Translations under genes and position numbers: made by a program
Shown: in pieces, positions 943-54,829 of the stretch
How positions within the stretch are numbered: the first letter of the stretch is position 1
How the letters are laid out: every line of letters begins with the position of its first letter
Notes under the pieces: generated by a model
What the model was told of the DNA's origin: nothing
Database searches by the model: none
What the model saw: only the letters and a program-made list of their open reading frames with translations
DNA from: an uncultured Microcaldota archaeon
GTDB lineage: Archaea; Micrarchaeota; Micrarchaeia; Burarchaeales; Fermentimicrarchaeaceae
Length of the DNA stretch: 61,800 nt
Assembly (NCBI GenBank): GCA_903884505.1
Contig: CAISET010000033.1
Coordinates: forward strand, 1 to 61,800
Reading direction: 5' to 3'

Positions 943-992
943 TCTTATGCATGAGCAAATAAAACGAGCATACGAAACGACAGTATAACGTG

Positions 993-2759: not shown

Positions 2760-2774
2760 TTTTCGGTGAAGTCT

Positions 2775-35900: not shown

Positions 35901-36077
35901 CTCCTTCTCGAAATCGTATACTAGCGAAAATCCGCGGCCGTTCAGCTTCCTGACCATCTGGTCGTAGCGCAGGGATGATTCAGGAATAGACTTAAGCAGC
36001 CAGGCATTGCAGTCGGCGTACGTGGCACTGCCAAGCCAGTGCCTGCCGATTCTCACCGCCTTGTCGCGTTCAGCCAT
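32919..36077 (-). CDS. HerA/VirD4-like secretion ATPase with C-terminal nuclease-like domain
   Basis: About 1052 residues. The N-terminal 330 residues are unfamiliar. A HerA/FtsK-type motor follows: Walker A SGQAGSGKTS near residue 352, Walker B LLLIFDEAQEIL, and a STHFLDR sensor. Winged-helix-like segments follow (AQIKLKNDPLKLMNALVREG). The last 110 residues contain SEFDCVKVKGNEVILYEFET, which resembles a PD-(D/E)XK core. It probably acts as coupling protein or DNA pump of the transfer system. ATG 36077 overlaps the previous stop (TAATG). Confidence 0.78.
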   Translation of the reverse strand: MAERDKAVRIGRHWLGSATYADCNAWLLKSIPESSLRYDQMVRKLNGRGFSLVYDFEKERAYIITNGLSSKLVESAFESFPGVELEHTEMPALGADWTSANTDTFWRFVAFPTERESIVTDPNAGSVGAIRYARKEEESSILADIFSPLTRKRCKLIVSFSPARMQAMRELGQSYEKKLSKIVQQSTGIRSGGSGGTSQQDFQMVVADSDVTKVASEICTMANKCISTNDAVYEVSLIGLGEDAGELKAHLLAKFPNREFPIHYDERLERGIPLPGGELLSGERASRFMFFAPEFAKRMRVVGFEPLPPGDLDSQDGVLLGHEVLKGLKVSGREVRWKLKGSLTAHTVVSGQAGSGKTSLVVKIAKHAAQSGTKVIAFGPSRDLLAIAMENPEMGVIDFKSCDVPMNPVRCPDKVNPYYFARDLCNWLPKALEPGPYLGPLKQALSSILPEIYAEDPAPSISKIIGASEAAIQRRFSAEGKLDKYVSIPTSALEGLRQLAKLNKFSSKHGVKIESLFEHGGVCCTGAIPFEDRPLFYSFVFAQALSYADAVYDEWGNDECRLLLIFDEAQEILRCKSGPWDEPGFARFLESRLPPFRKKGVGLLFSTHFLDRIDENVVRHAQNRFIFKQDAKSTKESCLSLGMSADAKKELAGAVSSKLLELNTRECVCKLLEIQKDGRRTNVTPFMFYVSEEHVEAPTEEDVKKRVQSYLEENGYCEELGEMVNEDNKADYEDERKELFRLVLERKIISESELAQIKLKNDPLKLMNALVREGFVSKKSFMKDGVQVTVFECTDAGTAMSGHLKPKVGEPKVGPPVDPDSVDIAWLKANAGCLAIFEHIGLGYAKPTQLKRVPRFGRDCNRYVALLKERGLIRDWQGSPDNSYYYEVAKLSVYRKTFGREAQSGCPQADGSESFVHIKAVQNFKESLSDCEDGDRFERIPDNETYRALGIKIGDSEFDCVKVKGNEVILYEFETGKNNEDKLLTNLCKLVVRKREEEAKGRVVKAIWESGSRHAQEKIAKAVEKYKRATNEQVHILTGTSEERRSGRLTAL

Positions 36078-36421
36078 TATATCACGTATAAGAATCTCAG
36101 GGACAGAATCGCCAGGAAGATGAAGATGAGCGGGGGGAGAGTGTACCACTGGAACGACCTTATGCCCCTGTAGAAAAGGAGGTAGGTGGAGACCGCGGCA
36201 AATGTGAGCGCCAGAAAAGCGGTTGCGTAGAAGAGGTTGCCTCTTGCAAAGGCGAGCTCCAGCCCGGAAAAGCGGCCAGAGGATGCCAGCACGTATGCGA
36301 GCGCCTGCACTGCAGCCGTGATGTCCAGCGAAAAGACGAAGACTGTCGGGAAGAATGTAGCTGGGGAGAATGGATTCTCGGCCTTTTCTCCACCCATGCC
36401 TTCAAACGTCATGCTCTCCAT
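36077..36421 (-). CDS. Small secretion-locus membrane protein
   Basis: About 114 residues with three predicted membrane helices (around 20-45, 55-80 and 92-114). GGGGTGA precedes ATG 36421, and the gene is coupled to VirB4 upstream and to the HerA-like gene downstream. Position suggests a structural part of the channel. No homologue was recognised. Confidence 0.68.
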   Translation of the reverse strand: MESMTFEGMGGEKAENPFSPATFFPTVFVFSLDITAAVQALAYVLASSGRFSGLELAFARGNLFYATAFLALTFAAVSTYLLFYRGIRSFQWYTLPPLIFIFLAILSLRFLYVI

Positions 36422-36426
36422 TAGCG

Positions 36427-39099
36427 TCACCCCTTCTTGGCAAGGTCCTCCGGATGGGTTGTGAACATCTTGTACTCCTCCTCATCCACTATGTTCTTCA
36501 GGGGGATGAGGGTGTTGTTGATGAAGAGCAGGCCGCTCCCCGGCTCTGAGGTCAGGAGGAAGTTCTTCGCCGTTTCGTTGAGCTTGAACGTGCTCGCAAT
36601 GTCATCAATTATCGCGGGCTTCATCCTCAGCAGGAACTGCCATGAGGTGTTGGCCATCACCGCCCTGCCGGCCTTGCTCTGCAGCAGGTCGTAGACGTCC
36701 TGAGTCGCGAGGATAAGCCCGAGGTTGTGGTGCCTGCAGGTCTTCACAATGTTGAGCACGTAGCCTTCCTCCCCTTCGGTCTGCAGGAGCTTCCATGCCT
36801 CATCAATTACGAGGAACTTCTTCCGCAGGTCCTTCTTCATCTTGTTGTAGACGTATTCTAGGACAACGAACATCAGCATCCTGCGCACGTCCCTTGGGAG
36901 GGCACCGACCTTGAAGACCACGAACCTGTTGTCGAGGTTCTCCATGTGCGTCTGCTTGTTGATGAAGGAGTATGAGCCTTTCACAAATCTCCTAAGGCTC
37001 GTGGCAACCGTGGTGGCGGCCTCTGCGCGCTTCCCCGTGCTCTTCTTCCTCTCCATTTCCATGTGCTCGTAGAGGTCGGAGAGCAGGGGGGGTTCCTTCT
37101 TCCAGGTCTTCGGGTCCTTAGTGATGCCAGCCTTTGCATAAACTGTCTCAAATGCCTCATCGAGCAGGTCGCGCACCTCATCGCTCATGTCCGTAATGAA
37201 GAAGCGCATTAGGCTGTGGAGGAAGAAGTACTTCTCCTCCAGCGACTCCTCGCGGATGTCGAACGGATTGATAAATGCTTTTGAGGTTTCGCTGAATTCT
37301 ACGGTGGCACCGCCCAGCGCCTTTGACAGCGCGTTGTATTCGCCCTCATCACTCGGGTCCAGCACGAGCACGTCTATCCCCTGCTGAAGCCCTCTCTTGA
37401 GCAGCGTTTTGACGGCGAACGATTTCCCGCCGCCGCTCATGCCTAGGAGCAGGCCGTTGGCGTTCGCGAAGCTCCTCGAGAAGAGGTCACATATTACTGG
37501 CATGCCATCGAGCTGGTTCTTCCCGAACATTATCCCGGTTGGCTGGGGCTCGAAGAACGCGCTGACGAATGGGAAGCATGCGGCGGCTGAAGAGGAGGTC
37601 ATATTCCTCTTCGCAGAGAGATGGTCCACGGCCAGGGGCACAACGGACTTGAAAGCCAGGTCCATCTTGTTGTAGGTTGGCATGGGCTTGAGCCTGACTT
37701 CGTTAATTTTGGAGACTATGGTATCTGTCAGCAGGTTGAGCTTCTCCAGCGAGTCTGCCTCCACTAGGCAGTAGATTGAGCAGTTAAAGGCCCTCTCCGA
37801 GCCGCGCGTCAGCATATCTATGAGCTCCTGCGTGGACTGGCACTGCACGTTTTGGGAGTATGCAACTAGCTTGCCCGAGGCCTGGTCGGTCGCTATGTCC
37901 AACGTCTGCTTCTCGAGCATCTTGTTGTAATAGGAGATGGTTTCTGAGAAGTTCGTGGGTTGGATGTGCATGGAAAGGTGGAAAACGCCCTTTGCGGTTA
38001 TCAGCGGCTCAAGGAAGCCCGGAGCAACAACATCAGGATAGCCGGTCACCGCGAGCACCCGGTAGTACTTGTCATTGACCTGCAGGTGGTCCCTAGCCGT
38101 GTTTATGTATGAAGGGGAGAGGAGAAGGTCGAGCACTGATTCCGGCCGTTTGTAGTCAATAGGGAGCTTCTCCGCACTCGCGATCCTCTCTATCTCCTCG
38201 CCTGTTTCCTTCCATTTCTCGCGCCAGCCCTCGGCAACTGTGAGGGGGGTCAGGTATTCTGAGCTGAGCTCTGAGAGCGGCGAGAAGTATGTGGAATAGA
38301 GGCCGATGAGCTCGTCATCGCTGAGCCTTTTTGGCATGAGGCCGACGCTCCTCAGCTTTTCCATGCAGACGTTAATGCGCTGCTCGAGCTGGGTTGCCAT
38401 GCCCTTGGCGTCCCTCGCGCTCGCCGTCGCTGACTCCTTGCAAAGCGAAACCGCCACATAGAATGTGCGGTAGATGGTCTTCTCCTGCGCGATGTGGTTC
38501 CTGAAGAACCTTTCGAAATGCTCTACCACGTGCTGCAGCGCCTGGCTTTTCGTCTCCTTGACCTTGGCGCGCGTATTCGCGAAGAACGAGTCCAGGTCGA
38601 GATGGTTTGTCTTCACAAGAATCTGGATTGGGACGAGGTCGGCGCTCGAAGAGCCTGAGAGCGAGTCCAGGAAATTCTTGAACGCCACGAAGATTGAGAC
38701 CTGCTGCTTCTCGTCGAGCATGGCGAAATTGACGGGCTGGACGCGCATCACCGCCTTTATGTCGCCGTTCTTCATGTGGACGACGCCATCCCGGATGTCC
38801 GATATGTCCATGAACTCCCGAGCCTTGCCATCGAAGAAGCCGGCATTCTTTGGCGCCCTTCGGAAGGCGAGCTCGGTGTTCACCCAGCTCCTTAGATCGA
38901 GGAACATGAAGGCGAACGCGGCGATGCCGGCGAGCAGGGAGATTAGTAGCCTCAGCAAGATTGGGATGAAGTCGAACTGGAGGTTGAAGAAGGCGATGCC
39001 GAGCACAGCGATCGCCGCGTACATTATCTGCCTCCTGTTTAGCCCCCAGATTACCGTAGGCTCGTACTCGACGATTGCTTGCGGTATGTGGACATTCAT
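36427..39099 (-). CDS. virB4: VirB4-like secretion ATPase with VirB3-like N terminus
   Basis: An 890-residue protein. Residues 1-85 contain two membrane helices in a PrgI/VirB3-like arrangement (IMYAAIAVLGIAFF; then FRRAP). The rest is VirB4: Walker A LLLGMSGGGKSF near 553, Walker B KFLVIDEAWKLL near 775, and the C-terminal ATQDVYDLL. VirB3-VirB4 fusions are known in several T4SSs. It powers pilus assembly or substrate translocation at the inner face of the membrane. A GGTGATG ribosome site lies before the ATG. Confidence 0.92.
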   Translation of the reverse strand: MNVHIPQAIVEYEPTVIWGLNRRQIMYAAIAVLGIAFFNLQFDFIPILLRLLISLLAGIAAFAFMFLDLRSWVNTELAFRRAPKNAGFFDGKAREFMDISDIRDGVVHMKNGDIKAVMRVQPVNFAMLDEKQQVSIFVAFKNFLDSLSGSSSADLVPIQILVKTNHLDLDSFFANTRAKVKETKSQALQHVVEHFERFFRNHIAQEKTIYRTFYVAVSLCKESATASARDAKGMATQLEQRINVCMEKLRSVGLMPKRLSDDELIGLYSTYFSPLSELSSEYLTPLTVAEGWREKWKETGEEIERIASAEKLPIDYKRPESVLDLLLSPSYINTARDHLQVNDKYYRVLAVTGYPDVVAPGFLEPLITAKGVFHLSMHIQPTNFSETISYYNKMLEKQTLDIATDQASGKLVAYSQNVQCQSTQELIDMLTRGSERAFNCSIYCLVEADSLEKLNLLTDTIVSKINEVRLKPMPTYNKMDLAFKSVVPLAVDHLSAKRNMTSSSAAACFPFVSAFFEPQPTGIMFGKNQLDGMPVICDLFSRSFANANGLLLGMSGGGKSFAVKTLLKRGLQQGIDVLVLDPSDEGEYNALSKALGGATVEFSETSKAFINPFDIREESLEEKYFFLHSLMRFFITDMSDEVRDLLDEAFETVYAKAGITKDPKTWKKEPPLLSDLYEHMEMERKKSTGKRAEAATTVATSLRRFVKGSYSFINKQTHMENLDNRFVVFKVGALPRDVRRMLMFVVLEYVYNKMKKDLRKKFLVIDEAWKLLQTEGEEGYVLNIVKTCRHHNLGLILATQDVYDLLQSKAGRAVMANTSWQFLLRMKPAIIDDIASTFKLNETAKNFLLTSEPGSGLLFINNTLIPLKNIVDEEEYKMFTTHPEDLAKKG

Positions 39100-39107
39100 A
39101 GCATCAC

Positions 39108-40052
39108 CTATTCATGAACGGCTGGCGCGGACGACTTTGAAGAATCCATTTTGCCCGCAGAACTGGCCACACCTGCCGCTTTAGTTATTACCGGCATTAT
39201 TACGGAAATGATGGGAGCGTTTAGGACTATGAGCGCGCCTCCGAGTGCAAGGAGGGGCACAACAATCAGAGCCACAAGGCTGGCTAGAAATAGCATCAGC
39301 CTCAGAGTGACTTCAGCCGCCATATCTGCGATTGGAGCTGCCGTTATTTGATCGCTTGCTATGCTCATAACCGCCAGTATTATCGCAAACAGGATCTGCA
39401 GGCACATGGCAAACAGGAATATTTTGATGAGAGTGCTGCCTATGGACTTGGTCGGCCCAAAGAAATACATGAAGATCGCAACGGGAAAGAGTACCGCGCC
39501 TAGGAAGATGAAAGCTATGCGGAAAATGAGGACAAGAGCTGCCGCAACCGCGACAATGGCGGCGACGATTAGTAGCACAAGATGGGCGGGAACGATGCCA
39601 TCACCGGGAAATACGAGGCTTTGTATCACGAAAGACCCGGCAATGGCTTGCGCAACGTTAAGAAGGAGTTCATATATCTGCTTTGAAAGGACCACGAATA
39701 TGGCGCCTATAATGGTGTTCTGTATTGTCGAACGGGCCGATGTCTGGGTGGAAACGGCGCGGCTGGTCATTATCTGCAGTCCGTTAAATGTGAATATTAC
39801 TAGGTAGAGCGGCATGAGGAGCAGGAGCATCTGTGAGTGAAGGGTGACGATTCCTTGAGAGGCGAATGGGTTGGGGTTCATTGCGATCAACCCGCCGGCT
39901 ATAAGTAAGACTGCATCGAGAAATGCGATTATTGCCAGACTGATGGCATTCAGCAAAGCATTTACGATGTCCCCTGGGAGATTGTTCCAGTCCGTTGCTG
40001 CGGCAAAGCAGGGAAACAGGAGTATGAAAAGCAATAGCAACCTAATTTTCAT
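39108..40052 (-). CDS. VirB6/TrbL-like polytopic channel protein
   Basis: A 314-residue protein with a signal-like start (KIRLLLLFILLFPCFAAA) followed by about seven long hydrophobic segments and a short polar tail with SSAGKMDSSKSS. Size, topology and place next to VirB4 fit the VirB6/TrbL/CedA-type channel of DNA-transfer systems. GGAGGGGATCTC precedes the ATG. It overlaps the end of the preceding gene by 11 bp. Confidence 0.8.
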   Translation of the reverse strand: MKIRLLLLFILLFPCFAAATDWNNLPGDIVNALLNAISLAIIAFLDAVLLIAGGLIAMNPNPFASQGIVTLHSQMLLLLMPLYLVIFTFNGLQIMTSRAVSTQTSARSTIQNTIIGAIFVVLSKQIYELLLNVAQAIAGSFVIQSLVFPGDGIVPAHLVLLIVAAIVAVAAALVLIFRIAFIFLGAVLFPVAIFMYFFGPTKSIGSTLIKIFLFAMCLQILFAIILAVMSIASDQITAAPIADMAAEVTLRLMLFLASLVALIVVPLLALGGALIVLNAPIISVIMPVITKAAGVASSAGKMDSSKSSAPAVHE

Positions 40053-41595
40053 GAGATCCCCTCCCCATCAGGTACAGGCCGAACCCGGTTGCAGCCAGCA
40101 GCAGAATTGGTGGAGCGTATGCGAGCGAATCGGAAATGAGGGTTCCGCTATAGACTGTGATTGAGGTTATTTCTGAGGCAGGCGAGTATTCCCCATCGTA
40201 CTCGAACGAGGCGCGCAAGATGGAGTAATTGCGGTTTGGGTTTATCGTGAACAGGGCTGAGCCGTTGGGATCTGTTATTGCCGTAAGGTTGTCTGTTGCG
40301 TATTGCAGATGAATCGTCTTGCCGGATATGGGAGCATCGTTCCGTGCGAAATGGACTGTTACATTGATGGGTTTGTTTTCCTCGACGACGCGCGGGAGCT
40401 CAAATGCCAGCTTCCCGTTCAACGGGCAGGTGATGTTTGTCGCATTCGGGCCGTAGCCCAGCTCAAAAAGGTCGGAGAAAGAAACTAGGGCGTGGGAGCC
40501 ATTAAGGGCCTCCTTATAGTAGAGATGGCTGAACGTGAAGTTTAGGCTGGAACCGTTGGAACTGTAGTTGCTTGCGTACGTGAGTTGAGGGAATAGGGAT
40601 GCATTATTCACCACCACCGGCTCAATCACTTTGACCGGCGGCAATGCGGTGGTGAAGTCGTATCGCGAGCTATCAACCCGCACGCTGGCGGTGTTGAATG
40701 AAACGAGCATTTTGCGGAAAGGGCTGGATATGTTGGAGCGCACCATGCCGGCCGCAGCATCGTTGCCGTCGTCTGGGCAGAAGTACATCTCGATGGATGA
40801 GTTGGCACTGAATGAGTAGACATCGCGCAGCAGCGAGTCGCTCAATGTCACATTCTCATCGTCAATCTCTGTCCTGGCGTAGACACAATCGGTCTGATAT
40901 TTTATACAGCTGTCGTTCTCCTCTTCGCAGCAGTAGGTATTTGGCTCGTATATGTCCCTCTTCACCTGGATGCGGAGCGCCAATATGGATGTGGTGTTGA
41001 GGGCGCGAGTTGTGTTGCTCACATTGTAGGTGGCCATGCTGCCGTTTCCGATGTGCATGCCGTTTGCATATATCGGAATGTCTTCGGACTTGCTTAGAAC
41101 TGTGTAGACAGTCCCGCAGTCCGGGTCACTGCCGCCGCAGGTCGTGCCCCTGTTCGAGGCGTTTGCGGGCACTTCGAAATGGTAGCTGTAAGCGGACTGC
41201 ACGGAGCCGTTTGGCAGTACCCAGTGCTTCGGGATTTCTGGCTCAATCAGGGATGGCATCACCGTGACCTCCCGTATCCATGCGTCCTTGATGTATGTCT
41301 TGCTCTCAACCGTGGTGCCGTCAGGGGGGCACGGAATCCGGAGGTTGGCGTTGTAGCGATACACGTTTTCGAAAAGTGAATCGTTGTTCGAAAATGTGAT
41401 TACCATCGCCTCATGGAATTTCTGCTCGTCCGTGAATGTAGAGTTGCTGAGGATCCATGCTATGGGTGGGTAAGTGCGGTCTACGGTAGTTGCCCCGCCG
41501 AAAATCGGGTCGTAGCATGCCGCATAGGTCAGACTGCCGAAGAGGAGAAGTGTAGCGGCTGCGCGCATGCGCGTGACCATCCCAACACATCCCAT
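40042..41595 (-). CDS. Secreted, membrane-anchored secretion-locus protein
   Basis: About 517 residues: a signal peptide (AAATLLLFGSLTYAACYD), a long beta-rich, Asn/Thr-rich ectodomain with many N-glycosylation sequons, cysteine pairs (CCEEENDSC) and an Ig-like region near the end (KPINVTVHFARN), then one C-terminal helix (PPILLLAATGFGLYLMG). It could be a surface adhesin or envelope component of the transfer apparatus. It begins right after the pilin stop. No family was recognised. Confidence 0.72.
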   Translation of the reverse strand: MGCVGMVTRMRAAATLLLFGSLTYAACYDPIFGGATTVDRTYPPIAWILSNSTFTDEQKFHEAMVITFSNNDSLFENVYRYNANLRIPCPPDGTTVESKTYIKDAWIREVTVMPSLIEPEIPKHWVLPNGSVQSAYSYHFEVPANASNRGTTCGGSDPDCGTVYTVLSKSEDIPIYANGMHIGNGSMATYNVSNTTRALNTTSILALRIQVKRDIYEPNTYCCEEENDSCIKYQTDCVYARTEIDDENVTLSDSLLRDVYSFSANSSIEMYFCPDDGNDAAAGMVRSNISSPFRKMLVSFNTASVRVDSSRYDFTTALPPVKVIEPVVVNNASLFPQLTYASNYSSNGSSLNFTFSHLYYKEALNGSHALVSFSDLFELGYGPNATNITCPLNGKLAFELPRVVEENKPINVTVHFARNDAPISGKTIHLQYATDNLTAITDPNGSALFTINPNRNYSILRASFEYDGEYSPASEITSITVYSGTLISDSLAYAPPILLLAATGFGLYLMGRGSHEN

Positions 41596-41596
41596 T

Positions 41597-41926
41597 TCAG
41601 ACCCACGGGCAGTCTGTCACGGGATTTACGCCTGCGAAAAGCTTGCCGACCACATATGCCGCCATTATGACGACGATTATTCCGAGTATCACGTACTCCA
41701 GCATCGTCTTCGCCTCCCTGTGCTTTGCAGGATCGCTTGAGGATGTCATGAAGGCAACCCCGGAGTAGGAGAGCATCACCATTGCCACCGCGCCTGCAAT
41801 TTGTCGCAGGAGCGTGACGACTCCACATATGGCGGTTATTCCTGCATTTGGGTCCGCAGCTGCAGCGATGTTGAGCGCCGCGAAGAGCACCAGCATCACG
41901 GTGCAGACCAGTTTCATGTTTCTCAT
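41597..41926 (-). CDS. VirB2/TrbC-like conjugative pilin
   Basis: A 109-residue protein. The signal peptide (KLVCTVMLVLFAALNIAAA) ends near ADPNAG, leaving a short mature protein with two membrane helices (RQIAGAVAMVMLSYSGVAF and YVILGIIVVIMAAYVVG) joined by a small polar loop. This is the VirB2/TrbC/CedA1 pilin layout. A strong GGAGGAGA site precedes it. It is the first gene of the secretion operon, with the promoter and operator-like repeat directly upstream. Confidence 0.85.
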   Translation of the reverse strand: MRNMKLVCTVMLVLFAALNIAAAADPNAGITAICGVVTLLRQIAGAVAMVMLSYSGVAFMTSSSDPAKHREAKTMLEYVILGIIVVIMAAYVVGKLFAGVNPVTDCPWV

Positions 41927-41939
41927 TGAAATCTCCTCC

Positions 41940-42000
41940 GCTTATGATTTATTCTTATTTCATAAGCATTATGTTTTTAATGTAATAGATTTATATAAGT
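41940..42000. promoter_or_regulatory. Bidirectional promoter with 8-bp inverted repeat
   Basis: The sequence TTTATATAAGTATATG (about 41989-42004) gives TATA boxes on both strands for the divergent secretion and pilus operons. GCTTATGA (41940-41947) and TCATAAGC (41960-41967) are exact complements, lying at about the start of the secretion transcript and just ahead of its ribosome site. An operator for the adjacent AbrB-like regulator is a natural guess. Confidence 0.55.
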
Positions 42001-42020
42001 ATATGCTCAAAATAGTCCAC

Positions 42021-42164
42021 ATGGGAAAGTGCGTTTTGAAATTCGTCGCAAAAGTTTCGAAGTCAGGCAAGAGCTACTATGTTCGGATTCCCCTCTCTAG
42101 CGTCGAGAGCCACAGCCTCGCAGGGAAGTATGTTGACGTTGAGATAGGGACGCTGGACGAGTGA
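42021..42164 (+). CDS. AbrB/SpoVT-like small DNA-binding protein
   Basis: A 47-residue protein. KFVAKVSKSGKSYYVRIPLS followed by AGKYVDVEIG is the swapped-hairpin AbrB/MazE DNA-binding pattern. The TATA box lies about 27 bp upstream of ATG 42021, so it is leaderless; longer frames upstream are not convincing. It is the first gene of the pilus operon and sits at the shared promoter, so it probably regulates both operons. Confidence 0.7.
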   Translation: MGKCVLKFVAKVSKSGKSYYVRIPLSSVESHSLAGKYVDVEIGTLDE

Positions 42165-42168
42165 GGCC

Positions 42169-44349
42169 ATGATGAAGGTATCGTGGAAGCAGGAGTCGTG
42201 CAATCCCGGCGCCTGCGGATGGTGCACGAGGGTGTGCGCCAAAGGTGCCATTTCAATTAGCGGAGGCGAATGCCATTACTGCGTGCAGTGCGACCCACAG
42301 TACGCCGAGTGCCTGAGGGCGTGCGCACGCGGCGCGCTTTGGGCGGACAAGGAAGGGACGATCAGGGTCGATGCGGACAAATGCGACGGCTGCGGGGCCT
42401 GCGAACGGAGCTGCCATTACAATGGCATTAAGGTGAAGGGCTCAGGGGGCGCGAGGAAAGCGGTGAAATGCGACCCCTGCAAGTCACTCGGGATTGAAAA
42501 GCCTGTTTGCGTGGGATTCTGCCCCCGCAGCGCTCTCACGCTTTTTGAGGCCGGCGAACCAAGACCGCTGGCGGGCGAAAGGGCGTCTGAATTCCAGGAG
42601 CAGGTAGAGCAGCACAGCATCGAATTCGTTGGAGATGGGAAGAGGATACCTGCGATAGCCAGCGGTCCGCATGCGGGGCAGCAGGAGTTGGGGCACGGCG
42701 TTTCATTCAAGGTGCTGCAGCTTCCCAACGGAAAAAGCTTTAAGGTCCTCCAGGAGTACGGGCGCGTGACGATAGGCGAGCTGCAGGGAGTTGGAAAGTG
42801 CTACGTGGTCTCGTTTCCGAAGCTCTTCGCCTTCGATTGGCATCTTGCGGCCCAGGTCAAGGGGCTTGTGATAAAGAGGCTCTCGTCTTCGTCCCTTGCG
42901 GCGCTCGCAGCGCCGGCGAGGTATTTCGATGCCAGCCCGAGGAAGGCAAGGCTTGCCGAAGTGAAGAGGATTGCGCTTGAGTTTTGCAACAGGGTCGCGC
43001 CAGCGCTCGAACCCGAGAGGAAGGATGCGATAGCTGAGATTGTGGCTGTGGACATAGCGGGCTTCGGGCCCATAGAGTTCCTGTGGGCGCAGGACAAGGA
43101 CAATCTGGAAGAGATAGAGGTCAACCATCCGCTTGAAGAGATAAGGGTGTATCACAAGAAGCATGGGCGGTGCCTGACGAACCTTGCGTTCCGCGGGGAG
43201 AAGGCGTTCAGGAAGACTGTGAACAAGATACTGTGGGATATTGGAAAGACGCTGGACGCTTCGCATTCTTCGGTCGACGCGCAGCTCCCTGATGGCTCAC
43301 GGCTGCACGCCCAAGTTTCGCCTTCCGCCCTCTCCGGAGCCATGCTGAGCGTGAGGATGCAGGCGCGCGAGCCTTGGACAATTACAAAACTGATCAGCAA
43401 CGGGACGCTTTCTGCGGAGATGGCCGCATACATCTGGATGGCCATAGAGATGAGGAAGGCGCAGATTGTCATCGCAGGGCCACCGGCGGCCGGCAAGAGC
43501 ACGCTGCTGTCCGCGCTGCTCGCGTTCCAGCCGAAGGGCGAGAAGGTCATTTCTATTGAGGAGGAGATTAGCGAGCTGCGCTTTTACAAGAACTTCACCG
43601 ACTGGCTGCCCCTCAGCGGAGTCGTGAAGTCGCGGAAGGAGGATGCGGGAAGGGCAGGAAGGGAAACGACGAACGTCCAGACCTGCATCGACCAGGTGAA
43701 GAACTCCCTGCGCTCAAGGCCGGACAGGATAGTGCTGGGCGAGCTGAGGGCTGAGGAGGCGCAGGAGTTGTTCGCCGGCGCAAACCTCGGGATACCGTTC
43801 CTTACTACTCTCCATGCGAACGAGTTCGGGACTGCGATAATAAAGAGGCTGAGGAGCCCGCCGATGAACGTGCCGGTGGACACGGTGTCGATGCTGGACA
43901 TTGTAGTGACGCTCTCCACGGATGCGGAGAAGAAGAGGAGGGTGATGCAACTCAGCGAGATCTGCTGGAAGAGCAGGGGGAATATGCCGCCGGAGGTAAG
44001 CAATTCGCTGGAGAGAGGGAAGCTCGAAGGGCTGCTCGGCAAGGTGTGGGAGGAAGGGGGCGAGGCGGCCTATGTTAATAATCTCTGGAGCTTCGACCCG
44101 GGCACGAAGGAATTTGAGAAAAACCTTGAGTCGAGAGCCAGAATCATCTCCGAGTTTGCGCGGCATTTCGCCATGGGTGAGAAGGAGGCGAGGGACGAGC
44201 TCAGGCGTAGGGCTGACGTGCTGGAAGCGCTGGCAAAGGGAGGAACCGTTAGTTTTGAGGCCGTCGGGAATGCGCTCCACGAGTACAGCACGACACCACA
44301 GGATAAGCGCAGGCTTTTTATCGCCCGCGCAGGCAGGGTGTGGAAATGA
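42169..44349 (+). CDS. Ferredoxin-domain fused VirB11/CpaF-type secretion ATPase
   Basis: A 726-residue protein. Residues 1-130 hold about 20 cysteines: CNPGACGWCTRVC and CHYCVQC, then the classical CDGCGACERSC and, after it, CDPC and CVGFCP. These are the spacings of several [4Fe-4S] clusters, as in HycB/NapF-like ferredoxins. After a linker region, residues 250-726 form a GspE/VirB11 hexameric ATPase: Walker A GPPAAGKST near 440, an acidic VISIEEE, PDRIVLGELRAEEA (Walker B), and TTLHANE (His box). The ATPase should power pilus assembly, and the iron-sulfur part may make it redox-responsive. Confidence 0.88.
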   Translation: MMKVSWKQESCNPGACGWCTRVCAKGAISISGGECHYCVQCDPQYAECLRACARGALWADKEGTIRVDADKCDGCGACERSCHYNGIKVKGSGGARKAVKCDPCKSLGIEKPVCVGFCPRSALTLFEAGEPRPLAGERASEFQEQVEQHSIEFVGDGKRIPAIASGPHAGQQELGHGVSFKVLQLPNGKSFKVLQEYGRVTIGELQGVGKCYVVSFPKLFAFDWHLAAQVKGLVIKRLSSSSLAALAAPARYFDASPRKARLAEVKRIALEFCNRVAPALEPERKDAIAEIVAVDIAGFGPIEFLWAQDKDNLEEIEVNHPLEEIRVYHKKHGRCLTNLAFRGEKAFRKTVNKILWDIGKTLDASHSSVDAQLPDGSRLHAQVSPSALSGAMLSVRMQAREPWTITKLISNGTLSAEMAAYIWMAIEMRKAQIVIAGPPAAGKSTLLSALLAFQPKGEKVISIEEEISELRFYKNFTDWLPLSGVVKSRKEDAGRAGRETTNVQTCIDQVKNSLRSRPDRIVLGELRAEEAQELFAGANLGIPFLTTLHANEFGTAIIKRLRSPPMNVPVDTVSMLDIVVTLSTDAEKKRRVMQLSEICWKSRGNMPPEVSNSLERGKLEGLLGKVWEEGGEAAYVNNLWSFDPGTKEFEKNLESRARIISEFARHFAMGEKEARDELRRRADVLEALAKGGTVSFEAVGNALHEYSTTPQDKRRLFIARAGRVWK

Positions 44350-45206
44350 GGTTGGAGGAGCAGCTCGCAAGGGTTTGGTTGCGCGCATTCACGGCCATAG
44401 GACTAGACCCAAGAAGGTTCATCAGGTGCGATGCTGGGACGCGGGAAAAGGTTGCCTATGCGGGACTTGATCTGACGCCCTCGGAGTATGCAGCCCTCGC
44501 ATTTGGTAATGGTATTAGCGCGCTCGTGCTGCTCATGGCCATAGGGCTCGCGCTTGCAGTTAGCTTCCAGTTCCCGCTCACCTACGCCGCGGTGCTTTCG
44601 GTTGCTGCCTTTGCCTTTGCAGTTGTTGCATCTGCACAGTATGTGGAGTTCCTGGCGGCAAGCAGGGCGAGGGACGTGGATTTGAACATACTCACCTCGG
44701 CGAGGCATATGCTCGCTGCGTTGAAAAGTGGCGTGCCCCTCTATGATGCGGCGGCGGCCGTTGCTAAGAACGACTACGGGGCGGTTTCGGAGCTCTTCAG
44801 CGAGGCACTCGTGAGGATTAGGGAGGGAGATGATGTTGATGCGGCATTCAGGAGCGTTGCCGCACGCACCCAGTCCGTATCGTTCAAGAGGTTTAGTGCA
44901 GCCATCGGCTACGCCATGGGCCACGGCACGAAGCTGGAGTTGGTGCTAGAGGATTTCGCGCGGCAAATGGAAGCCAGGCAGAGGCATGAGGTTTCGATGT
45001 TCTCGGCGGAGGCAACTAAACTCGGGTTGCTGTCCGTCACGCTGACGGGCATACTACCGGGGATGTTGGTGTTCATCATATCGCAGGCGCAGATAATCGG
45101 CAACATGAGGATAGGGATTGCGCTCCTGCTGCCAATCTATGCCGCATTCCTTCTCGTAAAGTATTTCCTGCTTAACAGGTTGATGAAGGCCACGCCCGGT
45201 GTGTAG
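44346..45206 (+). CDS. TadB/GspF-like pilus platform protein 1
   Basis: About 286 residues. An N-terminal cytoplasmic stretch and two membrane helices (about 55-98) are followed by the T2SSF helical domain (LNILTSARHMLAALKSGVPL) and two C-terminal helices. It is the inner-membrane platform that pairs with the secretion ATPase. Its start overlaps the ATPase stop (ATGA). A paralogue follows immediately, as in Tad and archaeal pilus loci. Confidence 0.85.
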   Translation: MRLEEQLARVWLRAFTAIGLDPRRFIRCDAGTREKVAYAGLDLTPSEYAALAFGNGISALVLLMAIGLALAVSFQFPLTYAAVLSVAAFAFAVVASAQYVEFLAASRARDVDLNILTSARHMLAALKSGVPLYDAAAAVAKNDYGAVSELFSEALVRIREGDDVDAAFRSVAARTQSVSFKRFSAAIGYAMGHGTKLELVLEDFARQMEARQRHEVSMFSAEATKLGLLSVTLTGILPGMLVFIISQAQIIGNMRIGIALLLPIYAAFLLVKYFLLNRLMKATPGV

Positions 45207-46163
45207 ATGGAGATGAGGACGCTGGTGGCAGAGGTCGCGCGGAAGGCGAGGCTTCCCGAGTGGAGGATGTTCGCACTTATGGCTGCTGCCAACGCCAGGC
45301 CTCTCGATGTACTCGGTAATGGGATAGGCGCACGGGAATGGACCACGCTGATGGTCACTGGGACGCTGACCAGCTTCATCGCGCTTCTCGTCCCCACATA
45401 TGTGGTAACGAATTCGCCGGAACTCGCGCTGCTGTTCGCCACTATAACCGCGCTACTCCTCGGCTACGCACTATTCATGTTGCCGTCCCTGCTTGCCGCG
45501 CGGAGAAGCGAGGAGATGGAGAGGGCCCTGCCGGGATTCCTCTCAGCCCTCGTGTCGGTTTATTCCACAACGAGGAATATGCGCACTGCGCTGATTGAGA
45601 CCGCGGATGCCGACCACGGGGCAGTTTCGAGAGAGTTAAGGCAGGCAGTGACGCACTATGAGCTCACCGGGGATGAGGGCGAGGCGTTCAGGAGGCTGAC
45701 GAACGGCGTGCAGAAGAAGAACGTGAAGGCTGCTTTCGAACTCGTATCCGCATCGCTGGCGACCGGAATAGACGTTTCGGATTCCCTAAACCTGCTTGCG
45801 AAGGGCGTATCCGCTTCGTTGGAGGCGCAGGACGACAAGAACGCGAAGACCGGGATAATGACCTGGTCAATGGTTTCTGCTTCGGCGTTCTTCTTCCCGT
45901 TCATAGCTGCCATTGGGTATGATGCGCTGCTCATGCTTGAGAAGCTGAATGGCGCTCCGCTCTACGCGGATTCGGAAAAGGGCTTGCTGCTCTTTACGCT
46001 TGCTGCCTATGCGCTGCTGAGCGTGGCGCAGGACGCGATGTTCATCGGGAGCGTGCGCAGCAACTCGATTGCGCGGGGAATGGCTGCATACTTCCCCCTT
46101 CTGGCTTTCATCGCGATGCTCGTGATGGCCGTTGTCGTAAGAATGGGTGGGGTACTGCTGTGA
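45207..46163 (+). CDS. TadC/GspF-like pilus platform protein 2
   Basis: A 318-residue protein. Helices lie near 48-92, the T2SSF domain follows (MERALPGFLSALVSVYSTTR), and three hydrophobic segments lie near 210-318. It begins immediately after the stop of platform protein 1. The two probably form a heteromeric platform for the VirB11/CpaF-like ATPase. Confidence 0.85.
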   Translation: MEMRTLVAEVARKARLPEWRMFALMAAANARPLDVLGNGIGAREWTTLMVTGTLTSFIALLVPTYVVTNSPELALLFATITALLLGYALFMLPSLLAARRSEEMERALPGFLSALVSVYSTTRNMRTALIETADADHGAVSRELRQAVTHYELTGDEGEAFRRLTNGVQKKNVKAAFELVSASLATGIDVSDSLNLLAKGVSASLEAQDDKNAKTGIMTWSMVSASAFFFPFIAAIGYDALLMLEKLNGAPLYADSEKGLLLFTLAAYALLSVAQDAMFIGSVRSNSIARGMAAYFPLLAFIAMLVMAVVVRMGGVLL

Positions 46164-46172
46164 GGTGATGGG

Positions 46173-46460
46173 ATGGTGCTGGAAGATGTTGCATTTGATG
46201 CTCGGGCAGTCTTTGGCGTCGCGGCACTCGCGCTTGCCGCGCTGATAATGTTCTGGCTCTACCACAACAGGGAGAAGGCGAAACTTGTGCTGGCCAATAA
46301 CGAGCTGAGGAAGCAGATAACGATTCTACAGACGGAGGAGGCTGAGTTCCGTGAGAAGGATTACAGGCCACTTGTTGCGGAGAAGGAGAAGCTGAAGACT
46401 AAGGTTGGGGAACTCGAGGACGACGCGATAGAGCTGAAGAAGGGTGGAAAGCGTGCTTGA
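46173..46460 (+). CDS. Membrane-anchored coiled-coil protein
   Basis: A 95-residue protein with one membrane helix (about 12-29) and a long charged coiled coil (KLVLANNELRKQITILQTEE). The topology resembles small bitopic assembly factors. Its last 17 bases overlap the primase gene. No family was recognised. Confidence 0.7.
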   Translation: MVLEDVAFDARAVFGVAALALAALIMFWLYHNREKAKLVLANNELRKQITILQTEEAEFREKDYRPLVAEKEKLKTKVGELEDDAIELKKGGKRA

Positions 46461-48051
46461 ACCAAAAAAGGCCACGCAACGGGCATACTTCAGCATGATT
46501 GAGACAGCGTGCTCACTGAAAAAGCCCGTGATAATAGATACGGACTCATTGCAGGCGAAGAAGGAAAAAAGGGATACATGGGTGGGAAATGACTCGACTT
46601 ACGTTTTGGCGGAGAAGAAGAGGAATGCGAATGCTGTCGGGAGGATGAGGATTTCGCATGACTATTCACCTAACGTCATAGAGATTTGGGGCGACGTGGA
46701 CGCAAATAAGAAGATGAAAACTAGGCAGGAGGTATGCGCTCACTTCAAGGAACTGCATGAAGCGACAATGAGATGGATTGATGCACACCTAAAGATGGGG
46801 ATTCCAGAGGACTGTGTTTATGTCGTATCGTCTGGCTTCGGGTTTCACACGCACGTATTTATCGAAGGAATAGGGAGCTTTGAAGAATACCAGGATGTGG
46901 TGCAGGCGCTCTTCGAAAAATCGGGGCTTCCGAACTCGAAAGGTTTGGGAGAGCGAATGAGCGACAAGGTTGTTTATGGGATAGACCTGAACAGGATTAA
47001 AGCCTCGAACACGAAGCTGAGGGACGTCGGGGGAGCAAACGAGAAGTATGAGGATGGGACGGTGCACTATGCCTCGGCTCTCACCGTGAAGGAATTTAGG
47101 GACCTGAAAGCTTATCCTTACGTTTCGAACCCGGCGGATGTTCGCTACCCAAATCTCACAGTTTGGAAAATGCCTCGTGGGTGGACTGCCAATAACGTTG
47201 TGGGCGCGACACGACCTTCTTCGCAGCCTGTGAGTGGGAAGTTAGCTGACTATCCATGCCTACGTGCCATACTGAATGCGCGCGAAACGAGCAATGAAGC
47301 CCGTCTCTGGCTCGTCATGGCGCTCAAGAATAAGCTCAAGATGGGTGAGGGGGAGTGCACGCAGCTCCTCTGCTCGAATGCGAAGTGGGAGGACTTGGTA
47401 ACGGATTCGAAAGGCTCGATGGGGACGCCGTACCACGTGCACAAGATATACTCGAAGAAGAACGCTGATGGGCGGGATGCGTACGGCAAGCCTCCGAAGA
47501 AGGCGAACCTTGTGGCGGAGGGGTATTGCAAACCAGGCGTGTGCGGTAGGTGCAAGCTCTACAAAAGGGCTGAAGAGGAGGGTGAGAGGTACGCGATTGC
47601 AGAGAGCGGGCACGAAACGAAGGAGGGGAACGGCAAGGAGAGAAGGCTGATTGAAATTCTTGAAGGGAATGGGAAGGACGGAAAGGTTGAGATAGACCCT
47701 GTGCTCCTGCCGACCGATGAGCTCGAGCTGTTCCCACCCTGCATCCGCCATGTGCTGAAGAGCGTGCCGGAGAAGGCGGCAGCGGCGAGGCAGGTGCCAA
47801 TGATAGTCACGCAGTTCTGCGTGAACGCGGGCCTGCCCGACGAAATGGTACATAGGCTCCTGAAGCCGCGCTCGAATTATGATGAAACGCTAACACAGCA
47901 GAAGATAAACAAGACTCGGGCTGAGAGGCTCAGCTGCTACTCCTGCGAAAAGCTTGCGACCATGCACCTCTGTTGGAGGAACGCGATATGCAAGACGCTG
48001 GAGACGCCGAACCCGGTGGGGTATTACAGAAAGGTGAGACGCTATGTGTAA
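46444..48051 (+). CDS. Archaeo-eukaryotic primase with PriL-like iron-sulfur C terminus
   Basis: A 535-residue protein. The AEP core has the metal-binding GDVDAN near residue 82, the S-x-G-x-G-x-H motif SSGFGFHTHVFI near 130, and VVYGIDLNRIKASN. The C-terminal 115 residues read like the PriL iron-sulfur domain (PPCIRHVLKSVP, then LSCYSCEKLATMHLC and C). A C-rich insert (CKPGVCGRCKLY) lies near 360. Such PriS-PriL fusions occur on archaeal plasmids. Placement inside a pilus operon suggests it primes transferred strands, although it could serve general replication. Confidence 0.82.
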   Translation: MESVLEPKKATQRAYFSMIETACSLKKPVIIDTDSLQAKKEKRDTWVGNDSTYVLAEKKRNANAVGRMRISHDYSPNVIEIWGDVDANKKMKTRQEVCAHFKELHEATMRWIDAHLKMGIPEDCVYVVSSGFGFHTHVFIEGIGSFEEYQDVVQALFEKSGLPNSKGLGERMSDKVVYGIDLNRIKASNTKLRDVGGANEKYEDGTVHYASALTVKEFRDLKAYPYVSNPADVRYPNLTVWKMPRGWTANNVVGATRPSSQPVSGKLADYPCLRAILNARETSNEARLWLVMALKNKLKMGEGECTQLLCSNAKWEDLVTDSKGSMGTPYHVHKIYSKKNADGRDAYGKPPKKANLVAEGYCKPGVCGRCKLYKRAEEEGERYAIAESGHETKEGNGKERRLIEILEGNGKDGKVEIDPVLLPTDELELFPPCIRHVLKSVPEKAAAARQVPMIVTQFCVNAGLPDEMVHRLLKPRSNYDETLTQQKINKTRAERLSCYSCEKLATMHLCWRNAICKTLETPNPVGYYRKVRRYV

Positions 48052-48063
48052 CGAGGTGGTCGG

Positions 48064-48318
48064 ATGAAGATGAGTGGAACTAGGAAAGGGCAGAGCGCCA
48101 TTGAGGTGATGCTCCTATTGGCGCTGGTGCTGCTCGTGGTAGCGGGAGTGTACTCGCTGGTTACCGGCACGAAGAGCGTCACGCAGGGCAACGTGACAAT
48201 GAACGGGACAAACATGACCGTGCAGCAGGCACTGAACAGCAGCCTGAACGACCTGAGGAATGTGTCCACGATGCCGGAGAAGAATGTGGTGCGGATTGGG
48301 GATGAAGAGGCATGCTGA
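48064..48318 (+). CDS. Class III signal-peptide prepilin 1
   Basis: An 84-residue protein. RKG precedes QSAIEVMLLLALVLLVVAG, with Q at +1 and E at +5 after the cleavage glycine, the canonical archaeal type IV prepilin motif cut by EppA/PibD-type peptidase. The short mature part is Asn/Thr-rich. GAGGTGGTC precedes the ATG, and its stop overlaps the next start. Confidence 0.82.
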   Translation: MKMSGTRKGQSAIEVMLLLALVLLVVAGVYSLVTGTKSVTQGNVTMNGTNMTVQQALNSSLNDLRNVSTMPEKNVVRIGDEEAC

Positions 48319-48725
48319 AAGGGCAGGTAAGCCTTGAGTACATGCTGATCCTCTCAATCGGGCTGCTGCTCTTCGTCTTCAGCATAGTGGCGCTGACGAA
48401 GGGGATTTCCCTAGTGAAGCCGATGGTCTCCAGCGCAGAGCTCGCCAGCTTTGATGACGCGCTCTTCATGGGTGCCGATTCGATGACGCCGGGCGCGCAG
48501 AGGGTTGTACAGGTGGATATACCTGCAGGCACGGGGTTCTCGCGTGTGAACTACTCCGCTGGCTGGAGCACCTATATGGTGGCAGCGGGGGGGCTCAACA
48601 TCACAAGGATGGTGCCGTACAACGTGACGCTCGTCCCCGTAAACCTGACGGCATATGCGGGAACGCAGACGCTCAGGATATATTCGGCGCATGAGGGTGA
48701 GGTAATTGTTGAGAGGCTCTCGTAA
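48312..48725 (+). CDS. Class III signal-peptide prepilin 2
   Basis: A 137-residue protein. MLKG is followed by QVSLEYMLILSIGLLLFVF, an exact Q-x-S-x-E motif. The mature head domain of about 100 residues is beta-rich with Asn-Thr sequons. Probably a structural or major pilin of the archaeal pilus encoded here. Confidence 0.85.
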   Translation: MLKGQVSLEYMLILSIGLLLFVFSIVALTKGISLVKPMVSSAELASFDDALFMGADSMTPGAQRVVQVDIPAGTGFSRVNYSAGWSTYMVAAGGLNITRMVPYNVTLVPVNLTAYAGTQTLRIYSAHEGEVIVERLS

Positions 48726-49128
48726 AGGGATTGTATCGATGCAGTTCCTCTTCATCGCCCTAATCTGGATGCTGGTGACCGCGGCGCTCCTGTTCCTTGC
48801 CGTCGGGCTGAAGCAGACGGAAGGGAAGAGCGCAGTGAAGGTGGAAGGGCTTATGATCGCGTACAGGCTTGAGAGGGCAGTGGATTCCTTCAGCAGGAAC
48901 CTGTGTTATGATGCAGGATGCGAGTCAAGGGTGGTGCTTCCGGGAACCATCAGGACTCGGGACTCCGCAGCGGAGGTAAACTACAGCGTCGCGCTTTCAG
49001 CCAACAGCATTGTTGTCTCACCGGAAGGCTTTGAAAACATCACGATTTACACGCCGAAGGGCATTGGGGGATTTAACGTGACAGTGGAGGAGACGAACGA
49101 CAGCAAAATCGTAATTCTGAGGGGATGA
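48709..49128 (+). CDS. Prepilin-like protein 3 (non-canonical signal)
   Basis: About 139 residues. RGSRKG precedes IVSMQFLFIALIWML: the hydrophobic helix and KG site are kept, but +1 is Ile and +5 is Gln instead of Glu. A TTG start with GAGGT upstream is required to retain the signal. Minor pseudopilins at the tip of related machines can lack Glu5, so a tip role is possible. Confidence 0.68.
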   Translation: MRGSRKGIVSMQFLFIALIWMLVTAALLFLAVGLKQTEGKSAVKVEGLMIAYRLERAVDSFSRNLCYDAGCESRVVLPGTIRTRDSAAEVNYSVALSANSIVVSPEGFENITIYTPKGIGGFNVTVEETNDSKIVILRG

Positions 49129-49484
49129 GCATGTTTGTTCCGGGAGAGGAGATCTACGCGCTTTTCGCGGTTTTCGTAGCACTGACGCTGATGCTCATAA
49201 GCGCGGTTTCGACCACCCGCAGCGTGGAAGGCGCGGGCATAGGAATGAGGATGGACTCGTTGGCCGACAGCTTTGCGGACTCGCTCGTGAAGAGATGCGT
49301 CCTGCAGGATGGAGGCTTCGACCTTGGGCGCCTCGGGAACATGACACTGGAAAATGGCAACCGGGTGGAGGTTGCAGGGCGGGATTACGGCGGGATTCCT
49401 CCTGGCAATGTGAGTATTTATGTTTCGAAAAGGCTTGTGTTCGTGGACGGAGAGCCGACCGTCCTGGTGGTGAGGATGTGGTAA
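49125..49484 (+). CDS. Pilin-like protein 4
   Basis: A 119-residue protein with an N-terminal helix (IYALFAVFVALTLMLISAV) and a small beta-rich head. A PGEE site replaces the usual KGQ. Coupled by overlap (ATGA) to the gene before. Likely a minor component of the same pilus. Confidence 0.62.
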   Translation: MSMFVPGEEIYALFAVFVALTLMLISAVSTTRSVEGAGIGMRMDSLADSFADSLVKRCVLQDGGFDLGRLGNMTLENGNRVEVAGRDYGGIPPGNVSIYVSKRLVFVDGEPTVLVVRMW

Positions 49485-50929
49485 AGAAAATGGGACAGGT
49501 GTCGGTTGAGTTCTACCTACTACTCGCACTGGTGCTGCTCCTACTCGTTGCCGTGGCAGATAATGCGTCAAAGTTCCTCGGCGCGCAGAAGACGGCTTCT
49601 GCTACTATGGAGGAAAAGGTGGGGCAGGGGATTGGCGGTCTTATTGGCTATTACGAGAATGAAAGCTACAATACGTCGTCCGCGAACGGGACGGATGCTG
49701 GGATGGTCAGGCTGACGTGGGGGGCGGGCTCGGCGTATTCCGTGAATGAAAGCGGAGTGCTGCAACTGACCGCGTGGAACGACTACCCGGGTGTTATGAA
49801 CGTCAGCAAGCTCAGAATTAGAATCTATGACCCGGCAGGGATGCAGCTGGAGAGCGCCGGCGGAGAGGCGGATGACATCTCTTTCCCGCTCGCTTATTCA
49901 CTCACTGCGACATTCATGCCGAATGCCACGGGCAATTACACTGCGATAGGAGAAGCGCTAGATCTGGCTGGCCAGCTGTATTACAACAATGAGACGGGCG
50001 GATATTCGAATACCTCCATGCGTTTCGAAGTCTTCGACCCTGCTTCGCCACCCGGCCCTCCGAACTACACCAACCCGAACTTTACTCTGACGGCAACAAG
50101 GAGCGGCGAACAACTTACCTATTCGTCATTTGCTGCGACCCCAACTACGCTATATTCCGTAGCCGGGTGCCAGGACGGCGCTACGATATGCTCCAGTTCC
50201 ATTCGAACTCCGATGTGCAGCACTGGGTCATGCGTGAACGGGCAGATCAACGGCGGCTGGTGTCAGCGTGTTAACGGAGGCCCGTATGTCGGCTGCGTTG
50301 CATTCATCGCCTATTCGGGCAATTGCAATATGTGGGGCCACCAGGCTGGCGCAACGGCGAGGTACATCTCGTCTAATGCGTCATCCTCGTTCAATCTGAC
50401 AATAACAGTAACTAACTCGACCGGCCAGTCCACCGCAGGCACGCTGACAGTCCCAGGCCAGACGGTCGTGCTGAGCGAGGTAAAGGGGAATGCGACACTG
50501 CTCGGCTCCCCGAGCGGCACTAGCTCATACGATCCATCATCAACGAGCGTGCTGGTCGCGCCATACGGCACCTCAAATTGGGTGCTCCGTGACAGGGACA
50601 AGTTCGAGGATTATAAGTTTGCTGAATCGGCGTACTCCACGTTTGCAAGCTTCAACAACGGCAAAAGCTTCAATGGCATGGGGGGAGGCGAGGGCGACAT
50701 CATATTCCAGCAGTGCAGTAACCTCAATAGCAAGTACAACACGCTCCTTTCATCAACAGGCGCGTCCTGCTCAATTTCAGGCAGCGACGTATACTGCCCC
50801 GCCTCATCCTTCGGATATCCTGTCGTGAAGGTGGTCCTCCGTTCCGACTTCTTGGGTGGGGGCATACCCGAATCCAACCCGGAGTATGTAACCTCAAACA
50901 ACGTGACTTTCATGGTCTATACGAATTAG
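49478..50929 (+). CDS. Large class III prepilin / pilus adhesin
   Basis: About 483 residues. KKMG precedes QVSVEFYLLLALVLLLLVA, a canonical class III signal. The head is very large for a pilin (over 430 residues), Ser/Thr/Asn-rich with several cysteines (CQDGATICSS, CSTGSC), suggesting a surface-exposed adhesin on the pilus. GTG 49478 or ATG 49490 may start it. Confidence 0.78.
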   Translation: MVKKMGQVSVEFYLLLALVLLLLVAVADNASKFLGAQKTASATMEEKVGQGIGGLIGYYENESYNTSSANGTDAGMVRLTWGAGSAYSVNESGVLQLTAWNDYPGVMNVSKLRIRIYDPAGMQLESAGGEADDISFPLAYSLTATFMPNATGNYTAIGEALDLAGQLYYNNETGGYSNTSMRFEVFDPASPPGPPNYTNPNFTLTATRSGEQLTYSSFAATPTTLYSVAGCQDGATICSSSIRTPMCSTGSCVNGQINGGWCQRVNGGPYVGCVAFIAYSGNCNMWGHQAGATARYISSNASSSFNLTITVTNSTGQSTAGTLTVPGQTVVLSEVKGNATLLGSPSGTSSYDPSSTSVLVAPYGTSNWVLRDRDKFEDYKFAESAYSTFASFNNGKSFNGMGGGEGDIIFQQCSNLNSKYNTLLSSTGASCSISGSDVYCPASSFGYPVVKVVLRSDFLGGGIPESNPEYVTSNNVTFMVYTN

Positions 50930-50938
50930 GTGCTTTAC

Positions 50939-51367
50939 ATGCGAAAGGGACAGTGGCTAGCATTCGATGCGACGCTCGCGCTCTGCGCCGCGCTTGTACT
51001 GTCTGTAGTGCTCATGCATAATGCCGCATCGCATCCGAGCACGGGGGGAGACTTGGCACTGGAGCGAGCGGGCTACGACCTGGTGAATGCATTTTATATG
51101 GACCCGGCGCTCGGGCAAAGGGTCGCGGCTGCGCTGAAGGTGCGCGGCTATATGAACGAAACTGAGATGGGAGACGTCAACGCGACGCTGGGGCGGTATG
51201 CGCAGCAGCTCGGCGTTAAGCGCGTGGAGATGCAGGTAGGTGGTGGGCAGGCGGTGGTTGCAGGAGCATCAATGCTTCCCGCAACTGAAAAGGCGACATT
51301 CTATGCAACCATCACGCTCAATGGGGGCGCTGAGAATAGGCTTGTGAGGCTGGCATTATGGAAATGA
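50939..51367 (+). CDS. Prepilin-like protein 6 (non-canonical signal)
   Basis: About 142 residues. MRKG precedes QWLAFDATLALCAALVLSV; Gln+1 is kept but Glu5 is replaced by Phe. The mature head is alpha/beta. It overlaps the next gene. Probably a minor pseudopilin. Confidence 0.68.
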   Translation: MRKGQWLAFDATLALCAALVLSVVLMHNAASHPSTGGDLALERAGYDLVNAFYMDPALGQRVAAALKVRGYMNETEMGDVNATLGRYAQQLGVKRVEMQVGGGQAVVAGASMLPATEKATFYATITLNGGAENRLVRLALWK

Positions 51368-51705
51368 AAAAAGGCTTCTTCGGGATGCTGGTCATAGTGA
51401 TAGTGATTGTGGGGATTATGACGTTCAACTACGCGCAGACGAAGAGTGCGGTCAACGATGCGAATGCGGATGCCGTTGCGCATGAGATCCGCGCGGACAG
51501 GATTGCCGTGCTCAGGAACGTCATCCTCCAGAGCCATAGGAACGTAACGCAGCAGAACGAGCTCGCATGGGGGATTTTCGTGCAGGGCGAGCTGGCGCCC
51601 TCCTACGGGCTCGATGCGTATATCGATTACTCGAAAGCGCCGGCGAAAGTGGTTATTTTGGATGAGCGGGAGGGGATGAGGTCGGAGTTCTACCTCGTGA
51701 ATTGA
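51364..51705 (+). CDS. Pilin-like protein 7
   Basis: About 113 residues. MKKG precedes FFGMLVIVIVIVGIMTFNY: a class III-like helix with Phe at +1 and no Glu5. The ATG at 51364 overlaps the previous stop (ATGA); ATG 51358 is an alternative. Last gene of the pilin run. Confidence 0.65.
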   Translation: MKKGFFGMLVIVIVIVGIMTFNYAQTKSAVNDANADAVAHEIRADRIAVLRNVILQSHRNVTQQNELAWGIFVQGELAPSYGLDAYIDYSKAPAKVVILDEREGMRSEFYLVN

Positions 51706-54810: not shown

Positions 54811-54829
54811 TACGGAAGATTGGAAAAAA

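Follow-up and report, generated by a model that had tools for sequence, protein, structure and literature searches.

A predicted type IV filament motor with a fused four-cluster ferredoxin-like domain in a Micrarchaeon

The window, i.e., the whole stretch of DNA that was analyzed, is contig C33 at its full length of 61,800 nt and is part of a 1.5-Mb genome. The ORF at positions 42169-44349 (+) starts with ATG and encodes 726 amino acids in a single frame, with both domains in one protein. From sequence and fold matches and a structure model built without cofactors, the protein is predicted to consist of a four-[4Fe-4S] ferredoxin domain (residues 1-128, 42169-42552), a flexible linker (residues ~129-178, 42553-42702), and a complete ATPase of the archaeal GspE/FlaI/TadA type with its N-terminal domain and RecA-like core (42703-44346), all on the plus strand. 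The full-length model had a pLDDT of 85.6 with the ferredoxin domain well ordered. Residues 130-175 were mostly of low confidence, with pLDDT < 50 at 130-148 and 161-175, and the linker was only 21-30% identical among paralogues.

The ATPase gene is the first in a type IV filament operon, followed by two platform genes and then several prepilin-like genes. Relatives, and the paralogous C36 operon of the same genome, likewise have homologues of the platform and prepilin genes beside the ATPase. Platform protein 1 (44340-45206, +; ArlJ/TadC-like, Pfam T2SSF) stands next to the ATPase in relatives, too, and platform protein 2 (45207-46163, +; ArlJ/UpsF-like by weak NCBIfam matches) is conserved in them. 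Three small prepilin-like proteins are encoded at 48064-49128 (+; genes at 48064, 48312, and 48706). Of these, 48064 and 48312 have class III signal peptides, with Pfam Class_IIIsignal scores under the cut-off; related operons contain homologues of 48312 and 48706. A large prepilin-like protein and two small membrane-anchored pilin-like proteins (49295-51705, +) have counterparts in the C36 operon (L039). The class III signal of the large protein was located at ORF residue 67, and its real start is probably inside the ORF.

Several other genes of the window were noted. Within the operon, the gene at 46444-48051 (+) encodes 535 aa whose C-terminal region resembles PriL, the large subunit of DNA primase, and no counterpart was found in related operons or in the C36 operon. 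The upstream ORF at 41814-42164 was rejected as a part of the system, having no Pfam match and no copy at related loci. Right after the operon lies a PLD-like gene with an N-terminal transmembrane segment, MkoB/DrmC-like by defence models (51768-52811, +). A type III restriction-modification pair (990-5141, +; MTase_III and REase_III matches) and an AbiEii-type nucleotidyltransferase of a toxin family (54755-56020, +) are also present.

The ATPase part matched Pfam T2SSE at residues 333-563 with 71 bits against a cut-off of 24.9, and Walker A (GPPAAGKS), the acidic box (EEE), Walker B (PDRIVLGE), and the His box (TLH) were conserved across the alignment. In Foldseek, the archaeal GspE 2oap was matched with E = 7e-34, along with FlaI 4ii7 and TadA/CpaF 8rkd. 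The domain, the four catalytic motifs, and the linkage to platform and prepilin genes thus place the protein in the T2SSE family (GspE/FlaI/TadA). The best NCBIfam models, namely, FlaI, TadA, and VirB11, all scored under their cut-offs, so the ATPase is a relative of these proteins and no equivalog. For the archaellum motor FlaI (NF058587), 164.5 bits were obtained against a curated cut-off of 550 bits, which by that model marks a relative rather than an archaellum motor; for VirB11 (TIGR02788), 74 bits against 249.95 bits. The initial annotation had read a VirB11/CpaF/GspE ATPase with these four motifs; the motifs were confirmed and the VirB11 label was dropped, with archaeal GspE, FlaI, and TadA being closest. 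Its view of the protein as a pilus motor agreed with the homologues and fold matches, and sequence and model together indicate that the 726-aa protein is very probably a type IV filament assembly motor.

A conjugation-like T4SS module occupies 32919-41926 (-) of the window and comprises a large, CedB/TraD-like ATPase whose matches were weak (32919), VirB4/TraC with a PrgI start (36427), a VirB6-like protein with multiple transmembrane segments (39108), and a VirB2/TrbC pilin (41597), all on the minus strand. The module is possibly an integrated conjugative element in a Micrarchaeon. DNA transfer had been offered initially as an alternative to pilus extension. The T4SS genes are divergent from the ATPase gene, no VirB4 or VirB2 counterparts were found in the homologous operons of relatives or of the same genome, and the conserved T4SS linkage (VirB4 and others) expected of a conjugative component was not observed. 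A DNA-transfer role is therefore unsupported, and a DNA-transfer motor was rejected on grounds of synteny.

In the N-terminal 130 residues, 17 cysteines were counted (positions 11, 16, 19, 23, 35, 38, 41, 48, 52, 72, 75, 78, 82, 101, 104, 114, and 118). The region is cysteine-rich as first described, with fewer than the about 20 cysteines given at that time, and the described motifs C72-x2-C75-x2-C78-x3-C82, C101-x2-C104, and C114-x3-C118P were all found. In an alignment of seven full-length fusions, 16 of the 17 cysteines were invariant, C35 being the variable one, and formed motif I (C-x4-C-x2-C-x3-C), motif II (C-x2-C-x6-C-x3-C), motif III (C-x2-C-x2-C-x3-C), and motif IV (C-x2-C-x9-C-x3-C). 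At sequence level, this four-motif pattern is that of four-cluster ferredoxins, and the 16 cysteines, four motifs, and paired ligands assign the domain to the DmsB/NrfC/HycB-type group. Fer4_6 was matched over the Pfam cut-off at residues 65-86. Modelled alone, the domain had a pLDDT of 80 and matched the folds of the WOR5 small subunit, HycB, and NrfC/PsrB (E between 3e-7 and 6e-6), in accord with the four-cluster electron-transfer subunits retrieved by the profile search. The DmsB equivalog TIGR02951 scored 41.1 bits against a curated cut-off of 214.1 bits, so the domain is not a DMSO reductase subunit.

The same genome encodes three fusions (C33, C36, and C29), three ferredoxin-less T2SSE ATPases (C15, C27, and C32), and an additional PIN/T2SSE-type protein (C16). 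With the ferredoxin on three motors and missing from three in one genome, the domain is specific to certain filaments. The third fusion (L210:8641-10422, G000:C29) belongs to a different operon type with DUF192, ATPase, and platform protein genes. When the best few candidates per genome were scored, 42 genomes from three phylum-level groups of DPANN showed fusions: Micrarchaeota (11 of 301 genomes), the phylum holding the Diapherotrites MAG L059 (21 of 87), and a third phylum (10 of 19). At the thresholds used in the profile search, none was found in 156 genomes of Aenigmatarchaeota, in 197 of the phylum that includes an Archaeoglobales MAG, or in 200 of the one that includes a Bathyarchaeota MAG; as best few candidates were scored per genome, these absences are statements of lower sensitivity. 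Mobile or viral spread was also considered and rejected, with no relative among IMG/VR viral contigs.

The co-occurrence of the two domains among homologues, proposed initially as a check, was thus seen in independent genomes. Because they carry the same fusion, and three paralogues occur here, an artificial joining of two proteins by a sequencing, start, or assembly error was excluded. Homologues with the cysteines lost and the rest conserved, which had been named as counterevidence, do occur in the Burarchaeum type, but there the entire domain is missing. By sequence comparison, this loss indicates a domain that is dispensable in that lineage rather than one that is false in the C33 protein. 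A hidden separate ferredoxin 5' of the Burarchaeum-type ATPases was rejected, as the frames upstream contained none (one of the three loci is at a contig end).

In four-cluster ferredoxins, the ligands are paired between motifs: set a comprises the first three cysteines of motif I and the fourth of motif IV (I1-3+IV4), set b II1-3+III4, set c III1-3+II4, and set d IV1-3+I4. Each ligand set was present as 4/4 or 0/4 in 31 of 31 aligned domains. Exactly set a was missing in L058, L059, L172, L176, and L183, and sets a and c in L220, L221, and L223. In the tree, L183 is separated from the other proteins that lost set a, and these share a supported node with the four-cluster L062, which implies two or more independent losses of the set. 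As IV4 is ~95 residues from I1-3, their joint loss is informative, more so than that of set c, which a single contiguous deletion could explain. In L148 and L152, 12 cysteines remain and motif III is absent, which fits the loss of c in an alignment-dependent manner; L240, lacking IV2, is a partial exception, and L239 has an altered motif II spacing. The two-cluster remnant ferredoxins of L220-L223 (Iainarchaeota; G387/G386/G385/G383) carry two extra conserved cysteines, '[YF]ECVxGVLCA', between motifs II and III. Cysteines vanishing by complete ligand sets are what real clusters predict, and this supports the binding of [4Fe-4S] clusters by the domain. Together with the homologues and fold matches, it bears out the initial reading of an Fe-S domain, and the protein is almost certainly a cluster-binding fusion of ferredoxin domain and ATPase, as judged from sequence and model.

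In the ATPase tree, the fusions fell into two subfamilies: clade A, with the window protein, C36, and the Fermentimicrarchaeum group, and with Burarchaeum-type members without the domain nested inside; and the larger clade B, mixed with ferredoxin-less proteins. In the ferredoxin tree, all sampled fusions were apart from 19 external four-cluster ferredoxins (support 95/84), with clade A as one group (100/97) among B. The motif II spacing was x6 in A and most of B, mostly x4 or shorter in the third phylum, and x4 in the external ferredoxins (26 cases, x6 in none). One ferredoxin origin with later spread among paralogous ATPases and repeated loss would be the simplest reading, which is tentative because the external ferredoxins were sampled by similarity.

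In four pairs of usable distance within the Fermentimicrarchaeum group, the dN/dS of the ferredoxin domain was 0.03-0.08, similar to that of the ATPase. A single, very closely related pair that differs by few changes gave 0.21, and comparisons with the window protein, being saturated, were left out. These ratios indicate a domain under purifying selection. They are far under 1 and speak against an evolutionary passenger, fused once and decaying without function, which the frequent loss of whole domains and clusters might suggest. The 16 cysteines were also retained in clade A at 37-50% identity, and cysteines go as complete ligand sets and not piecemeal, which makes a passenger very improbable.

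Among functions, the likeliest is a gating of pilus assembly by redox or Fe-S status, with chances just short of even. Pilus extension that depends on redox state or electron supply, as proposed initially, is plausible. Clusters would be inserted in the cytoplasm and receive electrons from low-potential cellular carriers of the ferredoxin type, a pyruvate:ferredoxin-type oxidoreductase (POR) being encoded in the same genome. Their oxidation state or presence would alter the seating of the domain on the hexameric ATPase or a partner, and filament assembly would thereby be switched by redox, oxygen, or iron status. Against gating, no conserved redox partner gene was seen beside the fusions, and the cluster number varies from 4 to 2, with frequent loss of the whole domain. 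Clade B neighbours were DUF192, platform proteins, and PAC2. A DUF362 gene (L051:14499-15398) was observed a few kb past the fusion ATPase in Ca. Fermentimicrarchaeum limneticum.

The main rival is a structural role by analogy to ABCE1, the ribosome-splitting ABC ATPase with an N-terminal Fe-S domain. A rigid Fe-S-stabilized arm would dock on a platform or membrane partner and be moved by ATP hydrolysis, indifferent to redox state. The flexible tether, the absence of neighbouring redox genes, the persistence of reduced versions with 2-3 clusters, and the presence of ABCE1, a precedent for such an ATPase, among weak fold matches all fit such an arm. The four-cluster layout is, however, that of electron-transfer subunits, four clusters are expensive for a scaffold, and many close homologues manage without the domain. 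A structural or mechanical arm is less likely than not.

The electron-transfer folds of WOR5, HycB, and NrfC would also suit a conduit that carries electrons from ferredoxin in the cytoplasm by way of the motor base to an acceptor in the membrane or outside the cell, or to a docked partner enzyme, and the presence of POR makes a ferredoxin-dependent metabolism likely. The operons examined contained no electron acceptor gene, the loss of one or two clusters is tolerated, and conduction by the filament is hypothetical. The variable cluster number and frequent whole-domain loss mean that no fixed electron path is essential, which argues against an obligatory electron wire, and a conduit is improbable. 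Overall, an archaeal Tad/archaellum-like pilus motor with a tethered four-cluster domain, switched by redox or Fe-S status, has about an even chance of being the full explanation.

Partner proteins and nucleotides are known regulators of secretion and pilus motors. No description of an Fe-S domain on such a motor was found in the full-text literature, most subscription papers being outside this scope; the main text of a census of archaeal type IV pili mentions neither ferredoxin nor Fe-S (PMC4858521). A link between redox state and filaments in DPANN archaea was not found described before. If the clusters gate the motor, redox state and surface filaments of these archaea would be coupled directly at the biochemical level. 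It is conceivable, if somewhat doubtful, that redox-switched type IV filament motors form a class extending across several DPANN groups, with assembly dependent on electron status; surface attachment of small, often host-dependent archaea would then possibly be coupled to fermentative redox balance. The gating idea is testable on one purified protein, and the natural series of four-, three-, and two-cluster and cluster-less homologues is a ready structure-function set.

Compared with known systems, archaeal GspE (2OAP), FlaI/ArlI, and TadA/CpaF share the N-terminal domain, the RecA core fold, and all catalytic motifs, and are encoded in operons with T2SSF platform proteins and prepilins, as here. 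They have no ferredoxin domain, and the solved ones are ~21-24% identical to this ATPase. ABCE1, a weak fold match, likewise joins an N-terminal 4Fe-4S domain by a tether to a P-loop ATPase, but it carries two clusters on an ABC-type ATPase and serves an unrelated process. The WOR5 small subunit, HycB, NrfC/PsrB, and DmsB have the same four motifs and ligand pairing as the fused domain, whose loops are shorter and whose motif II is mostly C-x2-C-x6-C instead of x4; those proteins are separate subunits of redox enzymes, whereas this domain forms part of a motor protein.
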